This document shows, one piece after another, positions 14,890 through 34,299 of a DNA stretch of 64,000 bases. The stretch is taken from the NCBI RefSeq assembly GCF_000230995.2, contig NC_019973.1:1750001-1814000 (forward strand), read 5' to 3'. Below the pieces are notes generated by a model. It searched no databases, was not told where the DNA came from, and was given only the letters and a program-made list of their open reading frames with translations. Origin of the DNA: Mesorhizobium australicum WSM2073 (GTDB lineage Bacteria > Pseudomonadota > Alphaproteobacteria > Rhizobiales > Rhizobiaceae). The translations under genes were made by a program, and so were the position numbers. The first letter of the stretch is position 1. Every line of letters starts with the position of its first letter.

Positions 14890-14939
14890 TTGGCTGCTGC
14901 CGACGGCTTTCCTCGCGAATTCTCATCCGCGTGAGTGTG

Positions 14940-16741: not shown

Positions 16742-16754
16742 CTGGTAGGACCAG
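16742..16754. promoter_or_regulatory. Operator-like palindrome CTGGT-AGG-ACCAG
   Basis: Perfect 5-bp arms with a 3-bp spacer, the size and symmetry of FadR-subfamily GntR operators (TGGT-N3-ACCA). It is one of six such sites in this window, all in intergenic promoter regions. Confidence 0.6.
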
Positions 16755-16817
16755 ATTTCCGGATATGTGAACAAATGACGCTTTGGTGACCGCCCTGGCG
16801 CTGTGTTCGTAAACATT

Positions 16818-16830
16818 CTGGCTGGACCAG
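16818..16830. promoter_or_regulatory. Operator-like palindrome CTGGC-TGG-ACCAG
   Basis: One arm mismatch relative to the consensus CTGGT-N3-ACCAG. It lies 64 bp downstream of the first site in the same divergent promoter region. Confidence 0.5.
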
Positions 16831-16916
16831 AGCGAGAAAAATGGTGCAGATTTGACCGCGAGCCGGCGGATCGGGTGCGAAACAGCGCCGATCCCGGGCA
16901 ATTCTGGGAGAGAGTG

Positions 16917-18107
16917 ATGAACATTGCGCCGGGCAAGAGTGCCGTCAGCAATATCCCGTTCGAGCAGGCCAGGGTCGACCGGCTGATGGAGGAGGCCGGC
17001 ATCGACGTGCTGCTCGCGACCTCCAAGCACAACACGCAGTATCTGCTGGGCGGCTACAAGTTCATCTTCTTCGCCGCCATGGATGCGATCGGCCACAGCC
17101 GCTATTTGCCGATCGTGGTCTACGAGAAGGGCGGTCCGGATCATGCAGCCTATATCGGCAACCGCATGGAAGGCGGCGAGCACCAGAACCACCCGTTCTG
17201 GACGCCGACGCTGCATGCCGCCTGCTGGGGCACCCTCGACGCCGCCAATCTTGCCGTCGAGCATGTCAGGAAGATCGGCAAGGGCGATGCCCGCATCGGT
17301 ATCGAGCCCGGTTTCCTGCCGTCGGACGCCTATGCGCTGATCCGCAAGGCATTGCCCGACGCGAAGCTGATCGATGCGACTGACATGCTGGAACGCATGC
17401 GTGCCATCAAGACCGACGCGGAGTTGGAGAAGCTGCGCACGGCCTCCGAGCTGATCACCGATTCCATGCTGGCGACCATCGCCTGGGCGCGCGAGGGCAC
17501 GACCAAGGCCGAGATGATCGAGCAGATCAGGCGCGAAGAGACCAATCGCGGTGCGCATTTCGAATATTGCCTGCTCACGCTGGGCTCCAGCCACAATCGC
17601 GCCACCTCCCCGCAAGCGTGGAAGAAGGGCGAGGTGCTGTCGATCGATTCCGGCGGCAATTATCACGGTTATATTGGCGATCTCTGCAGGATGGGCATTT
17701 TGGGCGAACCCGATGCCGAGCTCGAGGATCTGCTGGCCGAGGTCGAGACGGTGCAGCAGGCGGCCTTCTCGAAGGTGAAGGCGGGCACGCTTGGCGGCGA
17801 CATGATTTCTCATGCGGAGAGTGTGCTGAAGACATCCAAGGTCGCGCCCTATACGGATTTCTTCGCCCACGGCATGGGCCTGATCACGCATGAGGCGCCG
17901 TTCCTGATGACCAACCATCCAGTGACTTATGAAGGCACCTATGCGGCCAAACCGCTGGAGAAAAACATGGTGCTGTCGGTGGAGACCACCATGCTTCACC
18001 CGACGCGCGGCTTCATCAAGCTGGAGGATACGCTGGCGGTGACCGAGAGCGGGTACGTGATGTTTGGCGATCGGGGCCGGGGATGGAATAGGGGTGGGAC
18101 GGCCTAA
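16917..18107 (+). CDS. M24 family metallopeptidase (Xaa-Pro peptidase-like)
   Basis: 396-aa protein with the pita-bread peptidase fold. The five metal ligands of an active M24 enzyme are all present: D244, D255, H318, E356 and E370. The N-terminal creatinase-like domain covers about residues 15-160. ATG 16917 follows GGGAGAG. It is divergent from an oligopeptide-type transporter and shares its promoter region, so it probably hydrolyses the imported peptide or amide. Creatinase/ectoine-hydrolase-type activity cannot be excluded from sequence alone. No signal peptide is seen, so it is cytoplasmic. Confidence 0.9.
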   Translation: MNIAPGKSAVSNIPFEQARVDRLMEEAGIDVLLATSKHNTQYLLGGYKFIFFAAMDAIGHSRYLPIVVYEKGGPDHAAYIGNRMEGGEHQNHPFWTPTLHAACWGTLDAANLAVEHVRKIGKGDARIGIEPGFLPSDAYALIRKALPDAKLIDATDMLERMRAIKTDAELEKLRTASELITDSMLATIAWAREGTTKAEMIEQIRREETNRGAHFEYCLLTLGSSHNRATSPQAWKKGEVLSIDSGGNYHGYIGDLCRMGILGEPDAELEDLLAEVETVQQAAFSKVKAGTLGGDMISHAESVLKTSKVAPYTDFFAHGMGLITHEAPFLMTNHPVTYEGTYAAKPLEKNMVLSVETTMLHPTRGFIKLEDTLAVTESGYVMFGDRGRGWNRGGTA

Positions 18108-18532
18108 TTTTGGAGGCCGGCGCCCGGCGGGATCAGCCTGAAATCCGGCAGTTCGCGCAGACCCAGTTCCGGCCCGGCCGGCGAATAGACGACGAACAGC
18201 TGCATGGGCCCGTCGCCGGTGTTGAGCGTCGAATGAAACCGACTCTCCGGCACGTAGATGGTGCAGCCGGGGCCGACTTTCTCCACCACCGGATTGCCCT
18301 TCTCATCCTCGACCATCTGCTCGCCATGGCCCGAGATGACGAAGATAATCTCTTCCGCGCCCGGATGGTTGTGGCGGGTATGGCCCTTGCCTGAGGGCAG
18401 GTCGACGACGCCGCCGGAAAAGCGGGTCGCGCCGTTCACTTCAGGTGCCACCGTCAAAGACAGTTTTCCCCAGTCGAAGCCGAAGGCGCTGACGTCCTTC
18501 GGGTAGACAAACACCTTGCTCCTGTCGGTCAT
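18104..18532 (-). CDS. Cupin domain protein
   Basis: 142-aa single-domain cupin. The metal-binding motif 1 is GKGHTRHNHPGAEEIIFVISG (H, H, E ligands) and motif 2 is PESRFHSTLNTG. ATG 18532 is preferred because AGAAGGG lies 9 nt upstream; ATG 18541, which overlaps the preceding stop as ATGA, is the alternative. Third gene of an operon with a PEP-hydrolase-like TIM barrel and a Tm-1-like protein. Small cupins like this are isomerases, epimerases, dioxygenases or sensors; function not assigned. It overlaps the convergent peptidase gene by 4 bp. Confidence 0.85.
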   Translation of the reverse strand: MTDRSKVFVYPKDVSAFGFDWGKLSLTVAPEVNGATRFSGGVVDLPSGKGHTRHNHPGAEEIIFVISGHGEQMVEDEKGNPVVEKVGPGCTIYVPESRFHSTLNTGDGPMQLFVVYSPAGPELGLRELPDFRLIPPGAGLQN

Positions 18533-18537
18533 CTCTC

Positions 18538-19395
18538 TCATCCCTTCTTGTTCTTTGCGGCGGCGCCGAGCGTCACCGCCTTGAAATCCGCCGTCTGCCC
18601 GGCGATCGCGGCTTCCGCCGGCAGCCGTTCCATCGAGCTCGCGCCATAAAAGCCGTGCAGGCCCTTGGCGTGGGAGAGGATGTAGCGGGCGTCGTCGGGC
18701 ATCGAGATCGGGCCGCCATGGCAAAGCAGGATGACATCGTTGCGCACCGAGCGCGCCGCCTCGGCAATGGCGTCGATGGCAATGACGCAGTCGTCGAGCG
18801 ACTTGGCCGAGGTGGCGCCGATCGAGCCGCCGGTGGTCACGCCCATATGGGCGACGACGACATCGGCGCCCGCCTTGGTCATGGCGCGTGCTTCTTCGGG
18901 GTTGAAGACATAGGGCGTGGTCAGGAGGTCGAGCTTGTGTGCCTCGGCGATCATGTCCACCTCTAGGCCGAAGCCCATGCCGGTCTCTTCGAAACTCTGC
19001 CGCATCTGGCCGTCGAACAGGCCGATGGTGGGAAAGTTCTGAACGCCGGAAAAGCCCATCGTCTTCAGTTCCGCCAGCAGCAGCGGCATGATGACGAAGG
19101 GATCGGTGCCGTTGACGCCGGCCAGCACCGGCGTCTTCTTAACCACCGGCAGCACCTCATAGGCCATCTCCTTGACGATCTCGTTGGCGTTGCCATAGGC
19201 GAGCAGGCCGGCGGCCGAGCCGCGACCAGCCATGCGGTAGCGGCCGGAATTGTAGATGATGATGAGGTCGATGCCGCCGGCCTCCTCGGCCTTGGCCGAC
19301 AGGCCGGTGCCGGCGCCGCCACCGACGATCGGCACGCCTTTGTCGATCATTCCCCGGAACTTTTTCAGTATGTCCTTGCGCGGTATGGCTGGCAT
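18538..19395 (-). CDS. PEP hydrolase-like TIM-barrel protein
   Basis: 285-aa protein of the phosphoenolpyruvate hydrolase-like TIM-barrel family. Landmarks are the N-terminal [32 protein letters not shown], and [12 protein letters not shown] near residue 180. In plant Tm-1 this domain is fused C-terminal to the UPF0261 domain; here the two are separate adjacent genes (the stop-to-start gap is 9 bp), which supports a working complex. The reaction is not established. It lies between the Tm-1-like and cupin genes in one operon. Confidence 0.85.
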
Positions 19396-19404
19396 GTCTG
19401 GGTC

Positions 19405-20601
19405 TCACTGTCTGGCGATGTCGAGAAAGGCCGCGACCGCCGCCTTGGCAAAGTCCGGATCGTTGATGTGCAGCGGCAGGCGGGTGACGCGGCGCGTCGC
19501 ACCCGGCCTGATGGTGCGCTCGACGGCTTCGAACAGAGCTGCGTCGGCTTCCGGATCGAAGAAGGCGCCGCCTTCGATGTCGAGCGCGGAAACGCCTTTT
19601 TCCGGGATCAGGAAATGCACCGGGCCTTCGCAATGGGCGAGCCTTGTGCCGATCCATTCGCCGATCGCGCGGCATTCCCGCGCGGTCGTGCGCATCAGCG
19701 TGACGTTCGGATTGTGCTCGTAGAACAGCCGGCCACGATAATGCTCCGGAATGGTCGATGGCGCCCAGAAATTGACCATGTCGAGCGCGCCGACCGAGCC
19801 GACATAGGGTAGCTTGGTGCGGGCAATGGCACCGAAACGATCCTGGGTCGCCGGCAGCACGCCGCCGAACAGCAGGTCGCAGACCTCGGTCGTGGTGATG
19901 TCGATGACACCCGACAGCAGGCCGCTGTCGGCCAGCTTCTCCATGCTGCGGCCGCCGGTGCCAGTGGCATGGAAGACCATGCAATCATAAGTCGAGCGGA
20001 GGTGTTCAGCGATTGCCGTCACGCAAGGCGTGGTGACGCCGAACATGGTGAGGCCGATCGAGGCCTTGCCGTCCGCCGCAGGCGCCGGATTGACCGCCAT
20101 GCCCGCTATCGCCTGGGCGGCGTTGTGCAGCACGACACGAGACAGCCGGTTGAGGCCGGCCATGTCGGTCACCGATGGCATCATGATGATGTCGGACACG
20201 TCCACATAGGGGGCGGTGTCGCCCGAGGCCAGCGTGGAGACCATGAGCTTGGGCAGACCGAGCGGCAGCGCGCGCATGCCCGCTGTGATGATCGAGGTGC
20301 CCCCGCCGCCGCCAATGCCGATGATGCCCGATATGTCGTCGCGGGACTGGACAAAGCGCGTGAAGGCCCCAGCCATTGCCGCAACCGATCTGCCGCGGTC
20401 GTCGATGCCGAGCACCGCACCGCGGCCATCGGGATGATGGGCGGCGACCTCTTCAGCCGAGACGTCGACCGGCACGGTCGCGCCTCGCGTGCCGACATCG
20501 ACACGGCAGACGACGGCACCCGTCGCGGCGATCGCATCGGCCAGGAATGCGAGTTCCTCGCCCTTGGTGTCGGCGGTGCCCACCACATGGATGCGCTTCA
20601 T
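19405..20601 (-). CDS. Tm-1-like ATP-binding domain protein (UPF0261)
   Basis: 398-aa protein of the UPF0261/Tm-1 N-terminal family. It starts [17 protein letters not shown], has the glycine-rich loop GIGGGGGTS near residue 100, and the conserved GVTTPCV and [12 protein letters not shown] segments. The ATP-binding assignment comes from the plant Tm-1 resistance protein; the bacterial role is unknown. ATG 20601 gives the canonical N-terminus; longer frames upstream are unsupported. First gene of the operon Tm-1-like, PEP-hydrolase-like, cupin, and divergent from a TetR regulator. Confidence 0.88.
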
Positions 20602-20640
20602 CCGCGCCTCCCTCTGCTGGTTGGTTCGAAGGTGGTGATG

Positions 20641-20653
20641 TTCATCAGATGAA
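20641..20653. promoter_or_regulatory. Palindrome in Tm-1-like/TetR divergent promoter
   Basis: TTCATC-A-GATGAA, perfect 6-bp arms, 40 bp upstream of the Tm-1-like start and 88 bp upstream of tetR. It is a candidate operator for the TetR regulator; inference from position. Confidence 0.35.
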
Positions 20654-20740
20654 AGCTTTGTGCGCCGTAGAGCGTCAACGTGGCCACTCCAGGAAAAGGG
20701 CTGCCATTGCAAATTTTTGAGACGCGCGTATCGTATTGGC

Positions 20741-21421
20741 ATGGATGTCTCACGTCAACAACCCGCAACGGACGACAACGCCGGGGAGAGAGCAGAGCGC
20801 GGACCGCGGGCGCGGACAAAGCGGCTGATGCTGGAAACGGCCACGCGGCTGATGCAGGCGGGTGGGACGCCTTCGGTCAGCGAGGTGGCGGAGGCAGCCG
20901 AGGTCTCCCGGGCCACGGCCTACCGTTACTTCCCCAGCCAGGCAGCCCTGGTGCAGACCGTCGTCGACGAGGGGCTGGGGCCAATCTTGACCTGGAAGTC
21001 CACTGCCGCCGATGCCGAGCGCCGCGTCACCGAACTGTTCGATACGGCCATGCCGCGCATCGAGGCCTTCGAGGCGACATTCAAGGCTGCTTTGAAGCTG
21101 TCGCTCGATCAATGGGCGCGGCGCCAGGCGGGCACGCTGGGCGGAGAGCCGGCCTTCACGCGCGGCCATCGCGTCGAATTGCTGAAGGAGGCGCTCACGC
21201 CGCTCAAGGGCCGCTTGCCGCCGCGCGACTTCAAGCGGCTGGCGCAGGCTCTGTCGCTGATCTTCGGCGTGGAGGTGCTGATCGTGCTCAAGGATATATG
21301 GGGGCTGGACAGCCGCCGGATGATGTCGGTGGCGCAATGGGCGGCGAGTGCGCTGGTGCGCACAGCAATCGCGGAGTCGGCTTATGGTGGTGATGAGTCC
21401 GCTTCAGGAGCGGCGAAATAG
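20741..21421 (+). CDS. TetR family transcriptional regulator
   Basis: 226-aa TetR-like regulator. The N-terminal helix-turn-helix lies in [20 protein letters not shown] (about residues 45-65), followed by an all-alpha ligand domain. It is divergent from the Tm-1-like/PEP-hydrolase/cupin operon and probably controls it. ATG 20741 has no ribosome-binding site; TTGCAA (20707-20712) and TATCGT (20729-20734), 16 bp apart, would start transcription about at the ATG, so the mRNA may be leaderless. Confidence 0.88.
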
Positions 21422-21425
21422 CCCC

Positions 21426-21444
21426 AATCTGGTTGGACCAGATT
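21426..21444. promoter_or_regulatory. Operator-like palindrome AATCTGGT-TGG-ACCAGATT
   Basis: The best copy in the window: perfect 8-bp arms around a 3-bp spacer. It lies 5 bp after the TetR stop and upstream of the CUT1 transporter operon. Symmetry and core match FadR-type GntR operators. Confidence 0.65.
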
Positions 21445-21604
21445 TGCCTGCATACCGCTGATCCTAGCCCAAAATGCGATCATGGGGCAAGGTCAATGTA
21501 TATCATTGAGTAGGAAAATCATTGGAAAACAGGCAGATAAAGCTTTAATTCGACAGTAACGGCCCATGCCGGCTTTCAAGAAAGGGCTTGACGTCGCCGC
21601 AGGA

Positions 21605-21617
21605 TTGGTAATACCAG
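21605..21617. promoter_or_regulatory. Operator-like palindrome TTGGT-AAT-ACCAG
   Basis: Second site in the transporter promoter region, TGGT-N3-ACCA core intact with one outer mismatch, 165 bp upstream of the substrate-binding gene start. Confidence 0.55.
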
Positions 21618-21781
21618 ATCAAGGAAGATAAGCGGATCGAAAGTGAGGGCTGCGATCCATTTCCGGACAGAGCGAGGAGGCTCCGAATTCGGAAAAGCGC
21701 GACCACGGGAGGAACTACCAGGGCCGGCTCCGTCGCTGGCTCGTACGACAAGGTAGAATGCGCACAAGGGAGGAAATCATT

Positions 21782-23098
21782 ATGCGCAAGTTAGTGACCA
21801 GCATGCTTGCTGGTATCGGCTTAACGCTTGCCTGCGGAACGTCCGTCTACGCGCAGGAAAAGTCGCTCACCATTTTCTGGGCGGAATGGGATCCGGCCAA
21901 TTACCTGCAGGAACTCGGCAACGAGTACGAGAAGGAAACCGGCGTCAAGATCACGGTGGAGACCACGCCCTGGTCCGACTTCCAGACCAAGGCATTTACC
22001 GAGTTCAACGCCCATGGCGACGCCTATGACCTGGTCGTCGGCGACTCGCAGTGGCTCGGCGCCGGCTCCACCGGCGGCCACTACGTCGACCTGACCGACT
22101 TCTTCAAGAAGCATGATCTCGGCAACGTCATGGCACCGGCGACGGTGAAATATTATGCCGAGTATCCCGGCAACAGCGGCAAATACTGGGCGATCCCGCT
22201 TGAGGGCGACGCCGTCGGCTGGTCCTATCGCAAGGATTGGTTCGAGGATCCCAAGGAAAAGGAAGCCTTCAAGGCCAAATACGGCTACGACCTCGACGTG
22301 CCGAAGGATTTCAAGGCGCTGCGCGACATCGCCGAGTTCTTCCACCGGCCGGATCAGAAGAGATACGGCATCGCCATCTACACCGACAATTCCTACGACG
22401 CGATGGCGATGGGCTTCGAGAACGCGCTGTTCTCCTATGGCGGTGAGCTGGGCGACTACACGACCTACAAGGTCGACGGTCACATCAACTCCGACAAGGC
22501 GGTGGCCGCGCTCGATGCCTACAAGGAGCTCTACAAGTTCACGCCTCCGGGCTGGGCCAAATCGTTCTTCGTCGAGGACAACCAGGCAATCACGGAAAAC
22601 CTGGCCGCGATGAGCATGAACTTCTTCGCGTTCTTCCCCTCGCTGATCAACGAAGCGTCGAACCCGAATGCCAAGAACACCGGCTTCTTCGCCAACCCTC
22701 CCGGCCCAAATGGCGACCAGTTCGCCGCACTCGGCGGGCAAGGCATCTCCGTCATCTCGTACTCGAAGAAGCAGGACGAGGCGATGAAGTTCCTCGAATG
22801 GTTCATCAAGGACGAGACCCAGAAGAAGTGGGCGGCCCTTGGCGGCTATACCTGCAGCCAGGCGGTGCTCAAGTCGCCTGAGTTCCAGAACGCCACGCCC
22901 TACAACAAGGCCTTCTACGAGACCATGTTCAAGGTGAAGGATTTCTGGGCAGTGCCGGAATACGCAGAACTGCTGCAGCAGCTCAACCAGCGCGTCTACC
23001 CCTACATGATCGGCGGCAGCGGCACCGCCAAGGAAACGCTGGACGCATTGGCGGGAGACTGGAACGCGACCTTCAAGAAATACGGCCGCGTCCAATAA
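21782..23098 (+). CDS. CUT1 sugar ABC transporter substrate-binding protein
   Basis: 438-aa family 1 extracellular solute-binding protein. Signal peptide about residues 1-24 (MRKLVTSM..., hydrophobic core, VYAQ). Mature segments FWAEWDPANYLQELGNEYEK and YDLVVGDSQWLG are typical of polyol/sugar binders. ATG 21782 follows GGGAGGAAA. It heads the operon of two permeases, a small membrane protein and two ATPases. A strong T-tailed hairpin (23113-23150) follows, so part of the transcripts should end there. Ligand unknown; glycerol, polyol or a sugar derivative are possible. Confidence 0.92.
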   Translation: MRKLVTSMLAGIGLTLACGTSVYAQEKSLTIFWAEWDPANYLQELGNEYEKETGVKITVETTPWSDFQTKAFTEFNAHGDAYDLVVGDSQWLGAGSTGGHYVDLTDFFKKHDLGNVMAPATVKYYAEYPGNSGKYWAIPLEGDAVGWSYRKDWFEDPKEKEAFKAKYGYDLDVPKDFKALRDIAEFFHRPDQKRYGIAIYTDNSYDAMAMGFENALFSYGGELGDYTTYKVDGHINSDKAVAALDAYKELYKFTPPGWAKSFFVEDNQAITENLAAMSMNFFAFFPSLINEASNPNAKNTGFFANPPGPNGDQFAALGGQGISVISYSKKQDEAMKFLEWFIKDETQKKWAALGGYTCSQAVLKSPEFQNATPYNKAFYETMFKVKDFWAVPEYAELLQQLNQRVYPYMIGGSGTAKETLDALAGDWNATFKKYGRVQ

Positions 23099-23112
23099 TC
23101 CTTCATGTCCCG

Positions 23113-23150
23113 CGGAGGGGGCGATGTCGCCTCCTCCGTTTCTTTTTCTT
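23113..23150 (+). terminator. Intrinsic terminator/attenuator after the CUT1 binding-protein gene
   Basis: CGGAGGGGGCGA-TG-TCGCCTCCTCCG (23113-23138, 11 of 12 pairs) followed by TTTCTTTTTCTT. It sits between the binding-protein gene and the first permease in the same operon, so it probably reduces downstream expression. Confidence 0.7.
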
Positions 23151-23167
23151 GAACCGGGAGCAGGGTC

Positions 23168-24073
23168 TTGGCGACCACGATGATCACCACCCTCGACAGA
23201 TCCTCGCGCGCCGCGGCACGCGGCCTAAGCGATATCTCCATCCGCAATCTCTTCATCATCCCGACGGTTCTGTTCCTGATCGTCTTCAACATTTTTCCGC
23301 TGATCTACTCGCTCGGCTATTCCTTCACCGACTTCCGCGCGTCGACCAATGCGCCGGCGAATTTCGTCGGGCTGCAGAATTATCGCGACCTGCTCAACGA
23401 CCCTTATGTCTGGTCGAACTTCGCCATCACGGCGAAATACGTGATTGTCTCGGTCGTCGGACAGCTGCTTGTCGGCTTCGGCGTGGCGATGCTGCTCAAC
23501 CGGGACATTCCGCTCAAGGGTCTTATCACCACGCTGCTGCTGCTGCCGATGATGCTGTCGATGGCGGTGGTCGGGCTGTTCTGGAAACTGCTTTACGACC
23601 CGTCATGGGGGGTTATCAACTATGCGCTCGGGCTCGGCAATTTCGAGTGGCTGGCCGACCCCAAGATGGCGCTCTACGCTGTTGCGTTGACCGACATCTG
23701 GATGTGGTCGCCCTTCGTCATGCTGCTGTCGCTGGCCGGGCTGTCGGCGGTGCCGAAGCATCTCTATGAGGCCGCCGCGATCGACCGCGCCGGGCCGTTC
23801 TACACGTTCTTCCGCATCACCCTGCCGCTGGTCGCGCCGATCCTGATGATCGCCGTCATCTTCCGCACCATGGAAGCCTTCAAGACCTTCGATCTCGCCT
23901 ACATCCTGACCAGCCAGCCGACGGCCGAGCTGATCTCGATCCGGCTCTACAAGATGGCGTTCCAGGAATGGCAGACCGGGCGCTCCTGCGCAATGGCCTA
24001 CATCGTGCTGATAATGGTGCTGGCGATCACCAACATCTACGTCAAATATCTCAACAAGGTGAAGGAGCGCTGA
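23168..24073 (+). CDS. CUT1 sugar ABC transporter permease (MalF-like)
   Basis: 301-aa inner-membrane permease with six hydrophobic segments and the EAA loop YEAAAIDRAGPFYTFFRITLP. Start TTG 23168 is chosen because GGGAG lies 7 nt upstream; ATG 23180 is the alternative. It forms the channel with the next gene, which starts two bases after its stop region. Confidence 0.92.
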   Translation: MATTMITTLDRSSRAAARGLSDISIRNLFIIPTVLFLIVFNIFPLIYSLGYSFTDFRASTNAPANFVGLQNYRDLLNDPYVWSNFAITAKYVIVSVVGQLLVGFGVAMLLNRDIPLKGLITTLLLLPMMLSMAVVGLFWKLLYDPSWGVINYALGLGNFEWLADPKMALYAVALTDIWMWSPFVMLLSLAGLSAVPKHLYEAAAIDRAGPFYTFFRITLPLVAPILMIAVIFRTMEAFKTFDLAYILTSQPTAELISIRLYKMAFQEWQTGRSCAMAYIVLIMVLAITNIYVKYLNKVKER

Positions 24074-24074
24074 G

Positions 24075-25034
24075 ATGGCGGCCGTCCGCACTTCTTCCGA
24101 AATCACCTTCAACCGCGTCGCCATAGTCGCCGTGCTGCTGGTGACGATCATCTTCCTGGCGCCGATCTACTGGATCGCCTCGACAGCGTTCAAGCCGCGC
24201 AATCTTGCCACCACCATTCCGCCGACCGTCGTCTTCCAGCCGGAGATATCGCCGTTCGTGAAGCTGTTCACCAAGCGCTCTCAATTGCGCAGTCCGCCGT
24301 CGCCGGAAGAGTATGCGGCGGCCCCATGGTGGGAGCGCGTCGTCTTCGACGGTGGCGAAAAGATCGTGCGCGACGGCAAGGGCCAGGTGCAGTGGTCGGG
24401 CTATCCGAGCCGCTTCCTGAACTCGCTGATCATCGCCATCACGTCGACGGTGCTGGCCGTCGGCATGGGCACGTTCACCGCCTATGGCTTCTCGCGCTTC
24501 AGGGTGAAGGGGGAGGCGGACCTGCTCTTCTTCATCCTGTCGACACGCATGCTGCCACCGGTGGTGGTCGCGATCCCGATGTTCCTGATGTACCGAGCGG
24601 TCGGCCTCAACGATACCCACATCGGGCTGATCATTCTCTACACCGCCTTCAACCTGTCGTTCTCGGTGTGGCTGATGAAGGGTTTCATGGATGAAATCCC
24701 GAAGGAATATGAGGAGGCGGCACTGGTCGACGGCTACACGCGCATGGAAGCCTTCTTCAAGATCGTGCTGCCGGAGGCCGCCACCGGCATCGCCGCCACC
24801 GCTGTCTTCTGCTTCATCACGGCGTGGAACGAATACGCGTTCGCGCTGATCATGACCAACCGCCGCGCCCAGACGGCGCCGCCGTTCATCCCGAGCCAGG
24901 TCGGTTCGGGCCTGCCGGACTGGACGGTGATCGCCGCCGGCACCTTCCTGTTCCTGCTGCCGGTCGCCATCTTCACCTTCCTGCTCCGCAACCATCTGCT
25001 GCGCGGCATGTCCTTCGGAGCGATCCGCAAATGA
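24075..25034 (+). CDS. CUT1 sugar ABC transporter permease (MalG-like)
   Basis: 319-aa permease with an N-terminal membrane segment (about 14-36), a long periplasmic loop of about 70 residues (40-110), five further hydrophobic segments, and the EAA loop YEEAALVDGYTRMEAFFKIVLP. It ends in ATGA shared with the start of the small membrane protein gene. Confidence 0.92.
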   Translation: MAAVRTSSEITFNRVAIVAVLLVTIIFLAPIYWIASTAFKPRNLATTIPPTVVFQPEISPFVKLFTKRSQLRSPPSPEEYAAAPWWERVVFDGGEKIVRDGKGQVQWSGYPSRFLNSLIIAITSTVLAVGMGTFTAYGFSRFRVKGEADLLFFILSTRMLPPVVVAIPMFLMYRAVGLNDTHIGLIILYTAFNLSFSVWLMKGFMDEIPKEYEEAALVDGYTRMEAFFKIVLPEAATGIAATAVFCFITAWNEYAFALIMTNRRAQTAPPFIPSQVGSGLPDWTVIAAGTFLFLLPVAIFTFLLRNHLLRGMSFGAIRK

Positions 25035-25261
25035 GCTTTCGCGCCATCAATCAGAAATATCTGGAACCGGGTTCGCAGATACTCATGGTGCTCGGCATCG
25101 TGGCCCTCTGCCAGCCCTGGAACATGACCCTGCACACCTACGGCCTGACCATCATCCTGATCGGGCTGATCGGCTTCAACATCACCTCGAAGATCGCCCC
25201 CGAGGAACAGGCCGGCACCGGTCATGCCGGGGACGCGCGAAATCCGGGAGCACAGCATTGA
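25031..25261 (+). CDS. Small membrane protein in CUT1 transporter operon
   Basis: 76-aa protein with two hydrophobic stretches (about 17-30 and 36-52, ending in NITSKI). It starts at ATG 25031, overlapping the permease stop by 4 bp, and its stop TGA overlaps the TTG start of the next ATPase by 3 bp, so it is translated as part of the operon. A small membrane protein also occurs in the rhizobial glycerol transporter operon (GlpU with two ATPases GlpS and GlpT); the similarity of layout is suggestive, but I cannot show homology. Function unknown. Confidence 0.75.
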   Translation: MSFRAINQKYLEPGSQILMVLGIVALCQPWNMTLHTYGLTIILIGLIGFNITSKIAPEEQAGTGHAGDARNPGAQH

Positions 25262-26361
25262 CCCAGATCGAGCTTCGCGGTGTCCAGAAATTCTTCGGTG
25301 CCGTCCAGGTCATCAAGGACCTCAACCTCAAGATCGCGGACAATGAGTTCATCGTGCTGCTCGGCCAGTCCGGTTGCGGCAAGACGACGACGTTGCGCGC
25401 CATCGCCGGACTGGAAACCATCGACGAGGGCGACATCCTCATCGACGGCAAGCCGGTCCAGCATCTGAAGGCCGCCGACCGCGACATCGCCATGGTGTTC
25501 CAGTCATTCTCGCTCTACCCGCATATGAGCGTCTACGAAAACATCGCCTTTCCGTTGCGCGCCACGCGCAAGAGCAAAAGCGAGATCGACCAGGAAGTGC
25601 GCTCGGTCGCCAAGACGCTGCAGATAACGGATCTGCTGGCGAAGAAGCCGTCGGCGCTTTCGGGCGGCGACATGCAGCGCGTTGCGATCGGCCGAGCGCT
25701 GGTGCGGCGGCCGAAGGCGATGCTGATGGATGAGCCGATCGGCGCGCTCGACGCCAAATTGCGCGAAGAGATGCGGGCCGAGATCAAGCGGCTGCACATC
25801 AAGCAGGGCTCGACCACCATCTATGTCACGCACGACCAGATCGAGGCGATGAGTCTCGCGGATCGTATCGTCATCATGCATGAGGGCGTGCTGCAGCAAG
25901 TGGGAACGCCCGACGAGGTCTATTCGCGTCCGGCCAATCTGTTCGTGGCCCAATTCGTCGGCAGTCCGGTGATGAATGTCGCCGACGCGGCGGTTGCCGA
26001 AACAACGTCATCGGCCTCGGTCACCGTTGGTGGAGCGGCTTCCGGCTTCGAGTTTCCGCGGGCGCTGCTGTCGAAACTCAATGGCCACGCCAGCGGCCAA
26101 CTCGCACTCGGCATCCGGCCGGAAGGCGTCCTCATTCGTCGTGACGCGGCCGATGGCTTCATGGCCGTCGAGACGCAGATCGTCGAACCGCTCGGCTCCT
26201 TCGACATCGTCGACCTCAAGGTTGGCTCGAAAATGCTGCGGGCCCGCACCAAGAGCGGCTTCGTTGCCGGACCGGGCGAGAAGGTGTTTGCCCGAATCGA
26301 TCCGACCCAGGCGCATTTCTTCGACAAGGCAAGCGGCAGGTCGCTTGAGGTGAGGCTCTGA
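25258..26361 (+). CDS. CUT1 sugar ABC transporter ATP-binding protein 1
   Basis: 367-aa ATPase of the MalK/UgpC type. Walker A GQSGCGKTT, signature LSGGDMQRVAIGRA, Walker B AMLMDEPIGALDAKLREEM. The C-terminal regulatory OB-fold domain covers about residues 240-365. TTG start at 25258 with GGGAG 8 nt upstream, overlapping the small membrane protein stop. A second ATPase follows immediately, so the transporter likely uses a heterodimer. Confidence 0.93.
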   Translation: MTQIELRGVQKFFGAVQVIKDLNLKIADNEFIVLLGQSGCGKTTTLRAIAGLETIDEGDILIDGKPVQHLKAADRDIAMVFQSFSLYPHMSVYENIAFPLRATRKSKSEIDQEVRSVAKTLQITDLLAKKPSALSGGDMQRVAIGRALVRRPKAMLMDEPIGALDAKLREEMRAEIKRLHIKQGSTTIYVTHDQIEAMSLADRIVIMHEGVLQQVGTPDEVYSRPANLFVAQFVGSPVMNVADAAVAETTSSASVTVGGAASGFEFPRALLSKLNGHASGQLALGIRPEGVLIRRDAADGFMAVETQIVEPLGSFDIVDLKVGSKMLRARTKSGFVAGPGEKVFARIDPTQAHFFDKASGRSLEVRL

Positions 26362-27464
26362 TGGCCCATATCCAGCTCAAGAACATCTCCAAGACTTTCG
26401 GCAACCACACGGCCTTGACCGGGCTCGACCTCGACATCGCCGATGGCGAATTCTTTGTCCTGCTCGGCGAGACGGGCGCCGGCAAGACGACGACGCTGCG
26501 GCTGATTGCCGGTCTGGAGAAGCCGAGCGAGGGGCAGGTCTTCATCGACGGCGTCGACGTCGCCGACTGGGGTGCGGCCGAGCGCGACGTGGCGCTGGTG
26601 CTGCAGCAATATTCGCTCTACCCGCGCTACACGGTGCGCGAAAACCTCGAATTTCCGCTGAAACCGAAGATCCGCCGGCTGCCGGATGCCGAGATCAAGG
26701 ACCGCGTCGACCGCGCCGCCCGCACGCTGCGGATCGAGCACCTGCTCGACCGCAAGACCGACCGCCTGTCCGGCGGCGAGATGCAGCGCGTCTCCATCGG
26801 CCGTGCCATCGTGCGCAAGCCGCGCGTGTTCTTGATGGACGAGCCGCTGTCGGCGCTCGACGCCAAATTGCGCGAGGCGCTCCGCACCGAATTGAAGAAC
26901 CTGCAGATACAGCTTGGCGCCACCTTCCTGTTCGTGACCCACGACCAGATCGAGGCGATGTCGATGGGCGACAAGGTCGGCGTGCTCAACCATGGCCGCA
27001 TCATCCAGACCGGCACGCCGCACGAGATCTACAACAATCCGCGCGACACCTATGTGGCGAGCTTCGTCGGCTCGCCGCCGATGAACCTCATCGACGGCAG
27101 GCTGGTTAACGGCCGCGCGGTGATGGCGCCATTGAATTTCGAACTGCCCTTCGCGGGGGCGGCCAAGATTTTTACGGGGGCTGGGGCGAGTGCGGCGACC
27201 GACGGTCGCCCGCTCGTCTTCGGCATCCGTCCGGAGGATGTCTATCTGGAAAGCGGCGCACCGGTCGAGGCGCGTGTCCACGACGTCGAGAACCATGGCG
27301 TGGAAAAGATCCTGACGCTGCGGGTCGGCGATACAACGCTTCGCGCCACGGTGCCGGCCAGGACCGATGTCGCGATCGAGCAACCGGTGCGCTTTGCCTG
27401 GAATCCCGACAAGGTGGTGCTGTTCGACAAGGGCAGTGGTGTCAGCCTGCGGCACGCATCATAG
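26361..27464 (+). CDS. CUT1 sugar ABC transporter ATP-binding protein 2
   Basis: 367-aa MalK/UgpC-type ATPase. Walker A is GETGAGKTT, an unusual Thr-Gly variant of the loop; signature LSGGEMQRVSIGRA; Walker B VFLMDEPLSALDAKLREAL; C-terminal OB-fold domain. The ATG overlaps the stop of ATPase 1 in TGATG. The sequence is clearly different from ATPase 1, indicating an old duplication rather than a recent copy. Confidence 0.93.
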   Translation: MAHIQLKNISKTFGNHTALTGLDLDIADGEFFVLLGETGAGKTTTLRLIAGLEKPSEGQVFIDGVDVADWGAAERDVALVLQQYSLYPRYTVRENLEFPLKPKIRRLPDAEIKDRVDRAARTLRIEHLLDRKTDRLSGGEMQRVSIGRAIVRKPRVFLMDEPLSALDAKLREALRTELKNLQIQLGATFLFVTHDQIEAMSMGDKVGVLNHGRIIQTGTPHEIYNNPRDTYVASFVGSPPMNLIDGRLVNGRAVMAPLNFELPFAGAAKIFTGAGASAATDGRPLVFGIRPEDVYLESGAPVEARVHDVENHGVEKILTLRVGDTTLRATVPARTDVAIEQPVRFAWNPDKVVLFDKGSGVSLRHAS

Positions 27465-27471
27465 GGCGCGG

Positions 27472-27915: not shown

Positions 27916-27953
27916 TCTCTCGCAACGGCCACCGATAGGGGATGATGGGAAGC

Positions 27954-28301: not shown

Positions 28302-28416
28302 CAGTATCTTCCTGTCGCTGGCAGGTGCAAAGGCACGCTGGCCGGGTTATCCCTTCTGCAGTCCCAACGGCTGCTTGCCTTAAAGACGTTCCATCCTGGC
28401 GGAGTCCGACACCAAC

Positions 28417-29748: not shown

Positions 29749-30126
29749 ACAGTGCTTGCGTTCGCCGTCCTTGGCGGTGCGCACGATGCGGGTCGCGACC
29801 AGCCAAGGCAGGCTGTATTCCTTGCCGGTGAAGGTCTGGATGCGGTGCTCGATCGAGCCTCTGACCACGATCTTTCCGCTATAAAGCACGTCGGGCTGGG
29901 CCGTTATCGCCTCGTCGGCCTGCGGCAATCCGCTGGTGTCGATCGACACGCCCTTGGTGATGGTGCCGGTGGCAAGGTCGAGCGCGCTGTTCGACGGGCA
30001 GGGCGCCTTGAAGCAGCGTAGTCCGTTGTCGCAATAGACATAGCTGCTCTCGGCCGCTGCGAATGCCGGCAAGGTGCAGATGGACGAAGTTGCGACAATC
30101 AGAACTGCAAGGCGAAGACCGGACAT
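29737..30126 (-). CDS. Hypothetical secreted protein
   Basis: 129-aa protein with a Sec signal peptide (about residues 1-24, ending PAFAAAE). The mature part has cysteines in YCDNGLRCFKAPCPSNSA, suggesting disulfides, and no catalytic motif that I recognise. ATG 30126 fits the signal peptide start; a TTG nine bases upstream is an alternative. The domain resembles small periplasmic hypothetical proteins of Rhizobiales. Function not assigned. Confidence 0.75.
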   Translation of the reverse strand: MSGLRLAVLIVATSSICTLPAFAAAESSYVYCDNGLRCFKAPCPSNSALDLATGTITKGVSIDTSGLPQADEAITAQPDVLYSGKIVVRGSIEHRIQTFTGKEYSLPWLVATRIVRTAKDGERKHCSSH

Positions 30127-30166
30127 GGCTCGCAACGTCGCGGAGAATTGGGGCGAAACCGCGATG

Positions 30167-31159
30167 CTATATCTGCGCCGGAAAGCGACGCCGGTAGTGA
30201 TCGACCACTTCTGGATTGCGCAGATTGACCGGCAGTTTGCCCGCCAGCACCAGCAAGGCTTCGCCGGCCGCGCCGACGCCCATGCGCATCATCGATTCCT
30301 CGGTAATCCCCGCCATATGCGGGGTGACGATGACGTTGTCGAAGCCGAAATAGGGATGGTTTGGCGGCAGCGGCTGCGTCGAGAAAACGTCGAGCGCGGC
30401 GCCGCCGATGCGACGCCCCCGCAAGGCCTCGATCAGCGCGTCGTCATCGACGACCGGCCCGCGCGACACGTTGATCAGCAGTGCGTTGGGTTTCATGCGG
30501 GCGATGCGTTCGCGGCTGATCAGGCCGCGCGTTTCCGGCGTCAGCGGACAGCAGAGCACGATGATGTCGCTCTGCTCGACCAGCGCGTCGATCGACAGGA
30601 AGCCGACCTTTTCCGGCGCCGGCTGCATGCTGCGTGTCGTTGCCACCACTTTGAGATCGAAGCCGTGTGCGGCGATGTGGCCGACCGCCTGCCCGACGGC
30701 GCCGAGACCAACAATGCCGATGGTCTTGCCGGCGAGTTCGATGTTGGCATTGGCGTGCTCGCGTCCGGCCAGCCAGCCCTTGGCGCGCAGGTCGCGGTCG
30801 ACCCGGCGGAACTGCCGCAGCAGTGCAAGCGCGGTGAACATGACATGCTCGGCCACCGAGCGGGCATTGGCCGCCGGCACGTTGGCCACGAGCACGCCGG
30901 CCGCCGCGGCCGCTTCCATCGGGATCATGTCGAGACCGGCGCCATGGCGGATCGCGGCCCTCAGCTTCCATGCACCCTCGAACAGCGCCGGCGGCAGCGG
31001 CGCCCGCACGATGACGATGTCGGCATCCTTGGCCTCCCCCGCCAATGTGCCGGGGTCGAGCGCCGAAGCGATGACCAGCTGGCCGGCGCCGGCCAGCTTG
31101 GCCGTGGCGCGCGGGTGCAGCGGATGCGTCGACAGGATCTTTGGCACGGTCTGGGTCAC
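30167..31159 (-). CDS. D-isomer-specific 2-hydroxyacid dehydrogenase
   Basis: 330-aa NAD-dependent dehydrogenase. Nucleotide motif GIVGLGAVGQAVG near residue 148; the catalytic Arg in LINVSRGPVVDD; Glu in the RGRRIGGAALDVF region; His in TPHMAGIT. GTG start at 31159, two bases after the regulator's stop, so it is in an operon with the FadR-type regulator and enolase-superfamily gene. Likely reduces or oxidises a 2-keto/2-hydroxy acid produced in sugar-acid breakdown (hydroxypyruvate, tartronate and related compounds). Confidence 0.92.
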   Translation of the reverse strand: MTQTVPKILSTHPLHPRATAKLAGAGQLVIASALDPGTLAGEAKDADIVIVRAPLPPALFEGAWKLRAAIRHGAGLDMIPMEAAAAAGVLVANVPAANARSVAEHVMFTALALLRQFRRVDRDLRAKGWLAGREHANANIELAGKTIGIVGLGAVGQAVGHIAAHGFDLKVVATTRSMQPAPEKVGFLSIDALVEQSDIIVLCCPLTPETRGLISRERIARMKPNALLINVSRGPVVDDDALIEALRGRRIGGAALDVFSTQPLPPNHPYFGFDNVIVTPHMAGITEESMMRMGVGAAGEALLVLAGKLPVNLRNPEVVDHYRRRFPAQI

Positions 31160-31161
31160 GG

Positions 31162-31881
31162 TCAGGCCTTTTCGAGTGCCGCGCCCGCGGGCGAAGCCGC
31201 CATGCCGCCCTCGATCAGGCCCTTCCAGTAGCTTTCCGCGCCCTGCAGATGGGCGCTCATGAGCGCCTGGGCGAGATTGCCGTCGCGGCGCAGCAGCGCC
31301 TCGTAGATCTGCACGTGCTCGGCATGCGAGCGCACGCTGCGTTCAGGATCGTTGAAATAGATCGGCAGGCGCTGCTCGCCCATCAGATAGTAGACGCTGC
31401 AGATGTTGTGGAAGACGCTGTTCTTGGTGGCGCGCACGATCTCGAGGTGAAACTCGCGGTCTTCCTTGGCCAGACCTTCGCCAGCTGCGATGCGGTCTTC
31501 CGAGGCTTTGAGGATTTCGCGCAGGCGCTCGAAATTCTCCTCGGTGGCGCGCGAGCAGGCAAGCTCGGCGGCCTTGATCTCATGGATCTTACGCAACTCG
31601 ACCGTTTCATAGATCTGCAAGGGATCGAGCGGCAGGCCGGCACGTGCGAACAGCGCCAGCGCCTCGACGCTGGCCTGCTTGGTGTCGATGTAGATGCCGG
31701 ACTTGGCGCGGCGCTCGACGATGCGCATGGCCTCGAGGATGGCGAGCGCTTCGCGGATCTGGCCACGGCTGACGCCGAAATGCTCGGCCAGCTCGCGTTC
31801 CGACGGCGTGCGGCCGCTCTCCTTGTCCGAGTGGGAGAACAGATAGGCGGCGAGTTCCGCGAGAAGGTTCTTTTCTTTCAT
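31162..31881 (-). CDS. GntR family regulator, FadR/FCD subfamily
   Basis: 239-aa regulator. The winged helix is at about residues 5-70 (RTPSERELAEHFGVSRGQIR recognition region) and the FCD effector domain covers about 85-225, with the metal-type His residues in EFHLEIV and SHAEHVQIYEAL. ATG 31881 gives the canonical start; a longer frame upstream is the shadow of the enolase gene. It lies between the dehydrogenase and the enolase-superfamily gene, spacing 2 bp on each side. FadR-type regulators bind TGGT-N3-ACCA palindromes, which occur in three promoter regions of this window. Confidence 0.92.
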   Translation of the reverse strand: MKEKNLLAELAAYLFSHSDKESGRTPSERELAEHFGVSRGQIREALAILEAMRIVERRAKSGIYIDTKQASVEALALFARAGLPLDPLQIYETVELRKIHEIKAAELACSRATEENFERLREILKASEDRIAAGEGLAKEDREFHLEIVRATKNSVFHNICSVYYLMGEQRLPIYFNDPERSVRSHAEHVQIYEALLRRDGNLAQALMSAHLQGAESYWKGLIEGGMAASPAGAALEKA

Positions 31882-31883
31882 CG

Positions 31884-33053
31884 TCAATTGCGTTGCGCGT
31901 GCGCCTCCAGGAATCGCTCCGAAACGGTGAATCCCAGTCCGGGCTTTTCCGGGATCGCTATCATACCGTCCTGGGCTTCGACAGTCTCTTCGACCAGATC
32001 GTGGATCATCGGGTTGGCGCCGAGCGAATACTCGACGGTGAAACTCGAAGGCGACGCGGCGCAGACATGCAGCCCGGCGAAGAAGCAGGGCGCGCCGGCC
32101 CACAGATGCGGCGCAAAGCGCAAATTGAAGGCGCTGGCGATGGTGCCGATCTTCATCGCCTCGCTGATACCGCCACAGAAGGCAGGATCGGGCTGGAAGA
32201 TGTCGGCGGCCTTGAGAACGGCGAGATCGCGGAAGGCATAGCGTGTCGCCTCGCTTTCGCCGGTGGCGATCGGAACGGCGCCGGAGGCGCGCACTTCGGC
32301 CATGCCTAGCTTATCGTCGGCGATAACAGGCTCCTCGAACCAGGCGAGATCGAGGTCGTTGACGAGATGGATGAAGCGTTTGGCTTCCGCTACCGTATAG
32401 GTGCCATGGGCGTCGACCATCAGCTCGATGTCGGGGCCGAGGGCCTGGCGCGCGGCGCGCACGCGGGCGGCGGAAACATGTGCCGCGCCGTCCATGGCGC
32501 CGACCCGCATCTTCAACGCCTTGAAGCCGCCTTTGGCGATATAGGATTTCAATTGCTCGCCGATGGAATCGGCGGAGGCCCAGCCGCCCGAGGCATAGGC
32601 CTGCATGCGATCGACCTTGCGGCCGCCGAGGAGCCGCCAGACCGGCTGGCCCAGCGACTTGCCCAGGATGTCCCAGAGCGCGATATCGACCGCGCTGATG
32701 GCGGCGACGCTCATGCCACGCCGCGCCAGTTGTGGCATGGCGTGGCCGGCGCGGGCGGCGCTCTCATGGCGCACGCCGTTGTAGAGCATCTCCCAGATGA
32801 CTCCGATGTCGGCCGGATCGCGGCCGATCAACTGCGGCCCGACCTCGTGATTCAGCATGTGAACGAGTGCGCCGTAGCTGCCGGCACTGCCGGCCGCGTT
32901 CTTGCCTTCGCCCCAGCCGACCAGCCCGTCATCGGTTTCGACGCGCAGGATGGCGGCGTCGAAGGTCGTCACCTGGCCGAAGTCGCTGCGATGCTGCTTC
33001 GCGGCTTCGATCGGCACGCGGACCCACCAGGCCTGGACTGTCTTGATGCGCAT
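31884..33053 (-). CDS. Enolase superfamily (mandelate racemase/muconate lactonizing type)
   Basis: 389-aa enzyme with a capping domain (1-125) and TIM barrel. The acid/base and metal ligands are present: K181-M-R183 on strand 2, D214, E240, E266 and H316. The K-x-R pattern instead of K-x-K and the His at strand 7 place it near sugar-acid dehydratases of the mandelate racemase group, but the exact substrate cannot be read. Operon with the FadR-type regulator and 2-hydroxyacid dehydrogenase. Confidence 0.9.
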   Translation of the reverse strand: MRIKTVQAWWVRVPIEAAKQHRSDFGQVTTFDAAILRVETDDGLVGWGEGKNAAGSAGSYGALVHMLNHEVGPQLIGRDPADIGVIWEMLYNGVRHESAARAGHAMPQLARRGMSVAAISAVDIALWDILGKSLGQPVWRLLGGRKVDRMQAYASGGWASADSIGEQLKSYIAKGGFKALKMRVGAMDGAAHVSAARVRAARQALGPDIELMVDAHGTYTVAEAKRFIHLVNDLDLAWFEEPVIADDKLGMAEVRASGAVPIATGESEATRYAFRDLAVLKAADIFQPDPAFCGGISEAMKIGTIASAFNLRFAPHLWAGAPCFFAGLHVCAASPSSFTVEYSLGANPMIHDLVEETVEAQDGMIAIPEKPGLGFTVSERFLEAHAQRN

Positions 33054-33113
33054 ATTTTTCCCCAGCCCTGCCGCCGGTCGGGGCGGAAGGACAAATTTCC
33101 CAGCGGCAGTCGA

Positions 33114-34001
33114 CTATTTGATCAGCGGCAGCAGTGTTTCGGCGGTGATGCGCATCTGGTCGGTGTAGAATTTCTCGGTCAGCACGCTGGAGCCATGGTC
33201 CTGGATGAACTTCAGCTGCTCGGGCGAGATATCGACCGGATGGCGCTCGACCATGTCGGGATAGGGTGCTGCCGGCGTGCGGTCGACCGGGGCGACGAAC
33301 TCGTTGGTCAGTGCGCCGTCGTAGCCGACTTCCTTCAAGGTGGCGACGATCCTTGGCCAGTCGATCTGGCCGAGGCCGGCGGCAAAGCGGTTGTTGTCGG
33401 CGACATGGAAGTCGAACAGGCGCTTTCCGACCTGGCGGATAGCGTCATGCACGTTAAATTCCTCCATGTGGATGTGGTAGGCGTCGAGGCAGACGCCGCA
33501 TTCGGGGCTGACCGCGTCAGCCAGCGCCAGCGCCTGGGCGCCGCGGTTGAACAGATAGGTTTCGAAGCGGTTGAGCGGTTCGACGGCGATCTTGACCCCG
33601 ACCTTCTTAGCGTGGGTGAAACATTCGCGGGTCGCGTCGACCACCCACTTCCATTCCTCTTCCTCGGTACCGTCCGGGACCACCTTGCCGACGGTTGCCG
33701 GAACCAGCGTGATGATCTCGCCATCGAGTTCGCCGACCATCGTCAGCACGTCCTTGACGTATTGCACGGAGCGCTCGCGCTGGCCCTGGTCCCTGGCGGC
33801 GAGGTTGCGTTCACCCAGCATCAAGGTCACCGCGCCCCAGCAGCGGATGCCATGCTCCTTCAGCAGCGCCCGTGTCTCCTTGGTCTTGTACTGCGCGGGC
33901 TCGCCGGAAATCTCGATCGACTCATAGCCGAATTTCTTGATGCGCTTCAGCGTCGTCTCAAGCGGTTCCGCGCGCATCCAGTTGTGCGTCGAAAGATGCA
34001 T
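33114..34001 (-). CDS. Sugar phosphate isomerase/epimerase family TIM barrel
   Basis: 295-aa protein of the AP-endonuclease family 2 (xylose-isomerase-like) TIM barrel. Likely metal ligands are the Glu in VEPLNRFE, the Asp/His pair in CLDAYHIHMEE and the His in DFHVADNNR. ATG 34001 follows GGAAGGA. Members are hydroxypyruvate/tagatose isomerases, inosose dehydratases or 3-keto-sugar enzymes. First gene in a minus-strand run with the enolase-superfamily enzyme, divergent from a second isomerase at 34402 whose promoter region holds two palindromic sites. Confidence 0.88.
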   Translation of the reverse strand: MHLSTHNWMRAEPLETTLKRIKKFGYESIEISGEPAQYKTKETRALLKEHGIRCWGAVTLMLGERNLAARDQGQRERSVQYVKDVLTMVGELDGEIITLVPATVGKVVPDGTEEEEWKWVVDATRECFTHAKKVGVKIAVEPLNRFETYLFNRGAQALALADAVSPECGVCLDAYHIHMEEFNVHDAIRQVGKRLFDFHVADNNRFAAGLGQIDWPRIVATLKEVGYDGALTNEFVAPVDRTPAAPYPDMVERHPVDISPEQLKFIQDHGSSVLTEKFYTDQMRITAETLLPLIK

Positions 34002-34104
34002 GGTCTGTCCTTCCCAGATTCGTCCGTATGGTTTGCCTGCGACATGCATCGCCGGAAGACGATGCAAGGGTTCCTCCCCAAGGCATCCCCAGCCTTTTAC
34101 TGCA

Positions 34105-34121
34105 AACTGGTTAGACCAATT
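34105..34121. promoter_or_regulatory. Operator-like palindrome AACTGGT-TAG-ACCAATT
   Basis: Seven-base arms with one mismatch. The form is close to the lactate/pyruvate GntR operators (AATTGGT-N3-ACCAATT). It lies 104 bp upstream of the minus-strand isomerase start. Confidence 0.6.
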
Positions 34122-34286
34122 GGGTCTGAAATGAGGTCTACAGCAAATTCCTTGAGACGGCAACAACTGTGGCGACGCAACTTTCAGGGTGAATTAGTTT
34201 GTTGATTACATTGCAATATGTGCCGTTATTTTGGGCTTTCGGAGTGCCTTTTCGGCGCATTCCAAGGCTTGACCAGATTGCCTTAT

Positions 34287-34299
34287 TTGGTCATACCAG
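34287..34299. promoter_or_regulatory. Operator-like palindrome TTGGT-CAT-ACCAG
   Basis: TGGT-N3-ACCA core intact. It lies 103 bp upstream of the plus-strand isomerase start, so each of the two divergent genes has a site at nearly the same distance (104 and 103 bp). Confidence 0.55.

Follow-up and report, generated by a model that had tools for sequence, protein, structure and literature searches.

Paired TGGT-N3-ACCA palindromes as predicted operators of a FadR-type GntR regulator in Mesorhizobium australicum WSM2073

Regulators of the FadR subfamily of GntR proteins recognize operators with the consensus TKGT-N3-ACMA, and FadR and LldR sites carry the TKGT and ACMA halves with a 3-nt spacer, according to the accessible text of PMC4494728, which also describes a class of divergent promoter regions (divergons) with two such sites at a nearly constant distance. 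In another system, as given in the accessible text of PMC7797058, the tetrameric FCD-domain regulator Atu1419 of Agrobacterium fabrum loops two palindromes located 190 bp apart, one of which covers the -10 element. Here we analyzed a 64 kb window of the Mesorhizobium australicum WSM2073 genome (bases 1750001-1814000 of 6,200,534 bp in one contig), in which six palindromes related to TGGT-N3-ACCA accompany a FadR-type regulator gene (31162..31881, minus strand), hereafter GntR. Comparison of sequences indicates that these palindromes are very probably operators through which GntR represses its own operon, the divergent hydratase operon, a CUT1-type sugar transporter, a divergon of a family-5 transporter and an M24 metallopeptidase, and a DJ-1/PfpI gene.

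The window system has in common with the double-site divergons of PMC4494728 a winged helix-turn-helix (wHTH) plus FCD regulator, the TKGT-N3-ACMA palindrome, a near-constant spacing of two sites and a regulator gene within one of the operons, and differs in also having a pair at a one-sided promoter (CUT1). The accessible text of that study mentions no member that has these genes and contains neither the word 'Rhizobi' nor 'Mesorhizobium', and we found no publication naming this regulon in its title or at the start of its abstract. The statement in the earlier note on this DNA that FadR-type proteins bind sites of this kind agrees with the 3-nt-spaced sites of FadR and LldR, but not with UxuR, which belongs to a 2-nt-spacer group in the same text. 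The system resembles that of Atu1419 in its FCD regulator, in palindromes at a similar distance (176-180 versus 190 bp) and in one site over a -10 element. Atu1419, however, is a VanR-group protein with a C-terminal domain of six helices and the operator ATGTATACAT, as far as the accessible text of PMC7797058 describes it, whereas GntR has seven long C-terminal helices in its predicted structure, is paired with TGGT-N3-ACCA sites and is only 17-19% identical to it.

Sites, conservation, spacing, TTGAC positions and co-occurrence with GntR were computed in several samples. The named-locus sample comprised 80 loci around the closest relatives of GntR (78 from Mesorhizobium and two less specifically named); one locus of 3.2 kb (L060) had no divergon and was left out, so that 79 named loci were counted. 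The genus group consisted of 146 genomes and is referred to as Mesorhizobium. These locus samples lean to close relatives, being mostly the best matches per search, and a few stretches share one genome. A 19-column matrix was built from 54 sites with exact cores, found in 20 loci of 18 other genera of the family, leaving out three core matches distant from promoters; its training sites therefore all had exact cores. Eighteen stretches of the strain's own genome were scored with this matrix.

Five of the six palindromes are exact copies of TGGTNNNACCA, and the sixth, at 16818 (CTGGCTGGACCAG), has TGGC and one core mismatch, so the common core claimed by the earlier note for all six holds for five. 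The perfect 8-bp arms at 21426 were confirmed (21426-21444, AATCTGGT-TGG-ACCAGATT), and all six sites are indeed located outside annotated genes in three promoter regions. The same note recognized no other intergenic copy in the window, overlooking an exact TGGTCTGACCA at 1298-1308 between the 23S end and the 5S rRNA sequence (placed by eye). This rRNA-spacer 11-mer recurs at genome positions 710214 and 1743718.

Exact TGGTNNNACCA occurred six times in the window (1298, 16743, 21430, 21606, 34108, and 34288), against a mean of 0.30 and a maximum of 4 in 100 shuffles. The whole genome contained 55 exact cores, compared with 151 copies of the backwards-read control pattern; five of them fall in a 17.6-kb stretch in which 0.14 would be expected from the 50 elsewhere (Poisson P about 4e-7). 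These genome-wide counts cover exact cores, and core-mismatched sites like 16818 stand outside them. The out-of-genus matrix ranked the six palindromes first to sixth in the window, with 26.3, 25.9, 24.6, 23.3, 16.4, and 10.0 bits, followed by the rRNA-spacer copy at 6.8 bits. In 200 dinucleotide shuffles, matches of at least 10 bits averaged 0.10 (best 16.8), compared with six in the real window, and none reached 23 bits, compared with four. Among the exact cores of the genome (50 listed), those inspected were 21 with the Y...R flank and two near other FCD genes. Of the 21 YTGGTNNNACCAR sites, five are the promoter sites of the window, and only two others exceed 20 bits: 24.1 bits before the DJ-1/PfpI gene and 23.4 bits at 5251406. 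In the comparison with random frequency proposed in the earlier note, which was run in part, 11 of the other 16 flanked sites lie within listed open reading frames and five outside (L184, L185, L186, L193, and L194).

These isolated copies within genes, together with a single match above 10 bits in the reversed window (15.4 bits), are what could be expected if the palindromes were chance occurrences or general repeats. On the window alone, the two weakest sites (16742 with 16.4 bits and 16818 with 10.0 bits) are unconvincing; their conservation among relatives makes them convincing as predicted sites. For the six together, conservation at fixed places and the matrix and shuffle results refute a chance origin, to which we assign a negligible probability.

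One pair of sites is located in the divergon between AP1 (33114..34001, minus strand) and AP2 (34402..35457, plus strand). It contains the predicted operator CTGGTTAGACCAA on the AP1 side (34107..34119), which is also the distal partner for AP2, and TTGGTCATACCAG on the AP2 side (34287..34299), over the presumed -10 element, as judged by matrix and conservation and, for the latter, by the offset of TTGAC. Two sites of at least 14 bits were present in all 79 named loci, spaced by 180 bp in 77, 181 bp in one, and 172 bp in one. In other genera, all 11 side-by-side AP1/AP2 divergons, which are also training loci of the matrix, had both sites at or above 14 bits and 179-180 bp apart, while the intergenic length ranged from 361 to 496 bp and the distance from site to AP2 from 86 to 216 bp. 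The standard deviation of the site spacing was 0.39 in these 11 loci, versus 48 for intergenic length; within the genus, the latter was only 4.0. Cooperative double sites are recognized by a constant inter-site distance under varying intergenic length, and this is what the AP1/AP2 divergon shows in other genera. In an alignment of 91 divergon sequences, the operators formed near-invariant column blocks amid a poorly conserved middle. Five loci with a GntR of 57-68% identity had divergon spacings of 178, 167, 143, 143, and 139 bp, four of them with AP3 in the place of AP2. The GntR gene adjoined the divergon in 20 of 20 other-genus loci, which had been fetched by GntR.

A second pair precedes the CUT1-type transporter operon (21782..27464, plus strand; a binding protein, two permeases, and two ATPases). 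Its predicted distal operator has the perfect 8-bp arms (21426..21444; matrix and conservation), and the proximal one, TTGGTAATACCAG (21605..21617; matrix and TTGAC offset), covers the presumed -10 element. Two sites of at least 8 bits were found in 53 of 53 CUT1 upstream stretches, both reaching 14 bits in 51. The spacing in 43 genus-group stretches was 176 bp in 38, 175 bp in three, and 166 and 188 bp in one each; in ten other-genus stretches it was 143-184 bp. We also compared genomes in which the transporter had been exchanged. Eleven genomes had GntR and M24 and no high-identity CUT1 binding protein (hand count), of which nine (L333-L341) were fetched, leaving G169 and G196; G067 (79% complete, without any CUT1 match) was excluded. 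In all nine, the paired operators, 176 or 177 bp apart, were retained along with the preceding TetR-family gene, and a different transporter followed the promoter, with a binding protein 28% identical (domains checked in L333). It is possible, though we hold it with limited confidence, that the operator pair and its -35 element form a portable repression module for plant-glycoside catabolism, in which one GntR would connect two operators separated by 176-180 bp and control would be passed on whichever transporter lies behind the promoter.

The third region separates the family-5 (peptide-type) ABC transporter operon (SBP5; 11337..16622, minus strand; a binding protein, two permeases, and two ATPases) from the M24 metallopeptidase gene of the creatinase/prolidase type (16917..18107, plus strand). 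Here, the predicted operator CTGGTAGGACCAG (16742..16754, 16.4 bits) is followed 76 bp away by the weak, core-mismatched CTGGCTGGACCAG (16818..16830, 10.0 bits). The best site reached 14 bits in 38 of 41 orthologous stretches, and a second site of 8-14 bits was present in 36 of 41, at 74-76 bp in 35; in relatives the second site is likewise weaker and often contains TGGC. The M24 pair recurs within the genus, and the pairs of the isomerase divergon and CUT1 recur in the genus and in other genera. A further conserved block with CTGGACCAG is located at 16700-16715 in the same spacer in 8 of 10 aligned rows; it may represent a half-site or belong to the SBP5 promoter.

In addition, the DJ-1/PfpI gene appears to be a fourth target of GntR, as judged by its upstream sequence. 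An operator-like site of 24.1 bits at 1843242-1843254 (L184, L238) lies about 104 bp before this gene (1843352), 29 kb outside the window. Full-length DJ-1 genes of at least 89% identity were present in 114 of 146 genus-group genomes and absent from all 14 genomes that lack a GntR match (hand count); matches of 76-78% (L204, L304) were treated as paralogs and left out. A site 102-106 bp before the start was found in 48 of 49 such stretches, 46 of them at or above 14 bits, and a second site in 27 of 49, 74 bp further in 21. A GMC oxidoreductase was rejected as a target, because the sites in L197 follow its stop codon and precede DJ-1. The copies of this oxidoreductase gene in five genomes lacking GntR had no site within the 4 kb examined; the DJ-1 ortholog is also absent there, and therefore these siteless copies are uninformative on operator loss.

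The proposed binder belongs to the FadR subfamily by its predicted wHTH and FCD domains, its TKGT-N3-ACMA-type operator, and a modelled seven-helix domain. The profiles PF00392 (44.6 bits) and PF07729 (87.7 bits) both scored above cut-off, and all NCBIfam profiles scored below their curated cut-offs. The predicted structure (mean pLDDT 85.6; five models ranging from 62 to 86) has long helices at residues 72-80, 87-111, 114-132, 138-151, 155-168, 179-197, and 201-223 and a short one at 172-175, so that the modelled C-terminal domain has the FadR-group number of seven long helices, versus six in the VanR group. Sixty-four fold matches had an E value of 0.001 or better, and those listed were FCD or other GntR proteins, PmiR, DhdR, NanR, Atu1419, and FadR among them. 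PmiR, DhdR, NanR, LldR (2di3), and Escherichia coli FadR, the best structure or sequence matches, have the same fold and differ in sequence (11-28% identity in the fold matches listed). GntR was 57-96% identical to 19 aligned orthologs; the HTH stretch around PSERELAEHF.VSRGQIREALAILE was mostly invariant over the 20, and D141, H145, H189, and H211, possible counterparts of the metal-binding Asp/Asn and three His of Atu1419, were invariant in 20 of 20.

Across the family, 84 of the 394 genomes sampled and 33 of 109 genera contained matches to GntR at E 1e-40; at E 1e-30, matches occurred in 132 of 146 genus-group genomes, including G013, whose match (37%) was treated as no ortholog. The 15 genus-group genomes without an ortholog (14 and G013) had AP2 with 72-92% identity and an adjoining GFO gene; nine had AP2 of at least 82% (82-92%), and the six at 72% are perhaps a separate branch. 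No site of at least 8 bits was found within about 1.5 kb on each side of AP2 in any of the 15, where the strain's own genome shows both, and no regulator was among the proteins tried upstream. One genome (G042, 93% complete) had core changes in both M24 operators; its M24 and AP2 genes were separated by 2.3 kb rather than about 16 kb, and the intervening genes, including TetR, were gone together with the divergon sites. Recurring sites and co-occurrence with GntR support the proposal of the earlier note that the FadR-type gene governs a single predicted regulon.

It could be argued that the TetR-family protein encoded before the CUT1 promoter (20660..21421, plus strand; true start probably later) or another of the genome's 28 FCD proteins binds the sites instead. 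The TetR gene was kept between UPF0261 and CUT1 in four other-genus loci examined as well as in the nine genomes with exchanged transporters, and TGGTTGGACCA is found at the 5' end of one other FCD gene. However, the motif is of the FadR type (TKGT-N3-ACMA), and the TetR gene lies away from the isomerase divergon, of which GntR is the third gene on the AP1 side. We consider such a substitute binder very unlikely. The TGGTTGGACCA copy (L195, G000:C1:3922238; 11.6 bits) is perhaps that gene's own operator.

The position of TTGAC indicates how GntR would act at two of the promoters. For AP2, all 79 named loci have the start of the motif 24 bp ahead of the operator centre, as do 11 of 12 others (23 bp in the twelfth); for CUT1, the motif begins 23 bp before in 30 of 30 stretches of the CUT1 set and three of four named loci (the stretch of L065 being too short) and 22-23 bp before in 10 of 10 others. 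In the window, these presumed -35 elements are TTGACC at 34269..34274 and TTGACG at 21588..21593 (both plus strand), with first bases 24 and 23 bp before the respective centres. With a spacer of 16-17 bp, the -10 element would therefore coincide with the operator centre, which is the geometry of a repressor; by our reading, the centre of proximal sites is often TAATAC or TATTAC. We infer binding, repression, looping, and an inducer as follows. GntR would repress the operon that encodes it, the divergent hydratase operon, the CUT1 sugar transporter, the family-5 transporter/M24 divergon, and the DJ-1/PfpI gene. At the promoters of the hydratase operon and of CUT1, the bound dimer would block RNA polymerase because the proximal operator covers the presumed -10, and the second operator, 176-180 bp upstream, would strengthen repression, perhaps via a DNA loop. 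The DNA would be freed when the FCD domain binds a sugar-derived acid or a related intermediate.

Nearly as probable as not is that GntR binds these sites and the members of each pair act independently at their own promoters without a loop. In line with this, the two AP-divergon sites are about equally far from their own genes (medians of 112 and 108 bp), and most FadR-type double sites in the accessible text of PMC4494728 are independent (71 of 100). On the other hand, in other genera the spacing varies far less than the intergenic length, and the CUT1 pair lies on one side of its promoter, the TetR gene being codirectional. Helical phasing was tested as proof of looping and was absent at 10.5 bp (R 0.16; random 95% bound 0.39), and a strict loop is thus unsupported; a period of 11.3 bp gave R 0.43, but four periods had been tried. 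This lack of a common phase is also consistent with independent sites.

Together with the absent phase, several observations weigh against the model of GntR repression proposed here. The 45 bp ahead of the proximal operator lacked TTGAC at AP1 in all 79 named loci, at M24 (30 of 30), and at DJ-1 (46 of 46); among 19 other-genus AP1 loci, TTGAC was absent from that interval in 15 and lay at -33 in four. Therefore, the repressor geometry applies to two promoters only. Such promoters, with an operator centre 90-112 bp before the start, would suit an activator or a dual regulator, which we regard as improbable, since the operator lies on the presumed -10 at AP2 and CUT1. In addition, the second M24 site was below 14 bits in all stretches, the first M24 site of one locus with GntR (L229) was weak (9 bits), and one DJ-1 gene in a locus with GntR (L283) had no site. 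A lone site of 23.4 bits at 5251406-5251418 (L193), about 127 bp before another TetR-family gene, is unexplained. Descent and rearrangement of the upstream DNA confound both the absence of sites where GntR is lacking and the operator changes of G042.

Several genes under the predicted control of GntR resemble those of sugar-processing enzymes. The regulator operon encodes AP1, an AP_endonuc_2 protein like ketose 3-epimerases, an enolase-superfamily protein like sugar-acid dehydratases (31884..33053, minus strand), and a protein like D-2-hydroxyacid dehydrogenases (30167..31159, minus strand). For the enolase-type protein, a substrate could not be derived from homology, as there was no PDB match at E 1e-60 and all NCBIfam scores were under cut-off. 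AP2 is followed by a GFO/IDH/MocA oxidoreductase (35520..36698, plus strand) and AP3 (36915..37763, plus strand), another AP_endonuc_2 protein like ketose 3-epimerases. The structure matches of AP1 (to E 1e-15) and AP3 (to E 10) were ketose 3-epimerases; the AtOGE structure 8bvk was not listed among them, its presence in the searched database being unconfirmed. AP2 is a putative hydratase, 68.2% identical over 346 residues to PDB 8ro4, named 2-hydroxy-3-keto-glucal hydratase and presumably an Agrobacterium enzyme. The homologs of three GntR-less genomes (G005, G075, and G162) are closer to 8ro4 (74-75%) than AP2 is.

According to the accessible text of PMC10628242, a hydratase of this kind serves an oxidation-elimination-hydration-reduction route in Agrobacterium. 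The window has in common with that pathway (GlycDH, OGE, HYD, and Gfo) the hydratase homolog AP2 and the GFO-family gene after it. Unlike in the Agrobacterium non-hydrolytic glucoside pathway, no eliminase and no flavin oxidoreductase were identified in the window; no flavin glycoside 3-oxidase is among its annotated genes, and the GMC oxidoreductase adjoining DJ-1 in G150 had no match in the strain's own genome at E 1e-150. Therefore, the cluster is not classed as a non-hydrolytic glycoside pathway. The words 'regulat' and 'transcription' are absent from the main text of PMC10628242, and no regulator was seen in the accessible text of the literature found on non-hydrolytic glycoside breakdown. 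In the GntR-less genome G176 (L325), the hydratase and GFO genes and the family-5 transporter operon face in opposite directions as a divergent pair. This arrangement ties the hydratase to that transporter without the regulator, suggesting that the transporter may carry glycosides rather than peptides.

Among the neighboring genes, those for a cupin, a PEP_hydrolase-like protein, and UPF0261 (18104-20742) were kept between M24 and CUT1 in the relatives examined, and no operator of their own was seen. Genes of a phosphonate-type ABC transporter and a DUF1868 2H-phosphodiesterase occupy 38058-43163 on the minus strand.

Taken together, this analysis supplies a conserved regulator and exact predicted operators for a group of genes, among them a homolog of the hydratase of the recently described non-hydrolytic glycoside breakdown, and the control of an unusual sugar breakdown becomes directly testable. 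A peptide-type transporter and an M24 peptidase would join the response of the sugar transporter, a hint at the real cargo of the former. Because the spacing is kept, the idea of a looping GntR repressor can also be tested directly in nodule bacteria suited to work in an ordinary laboratory.

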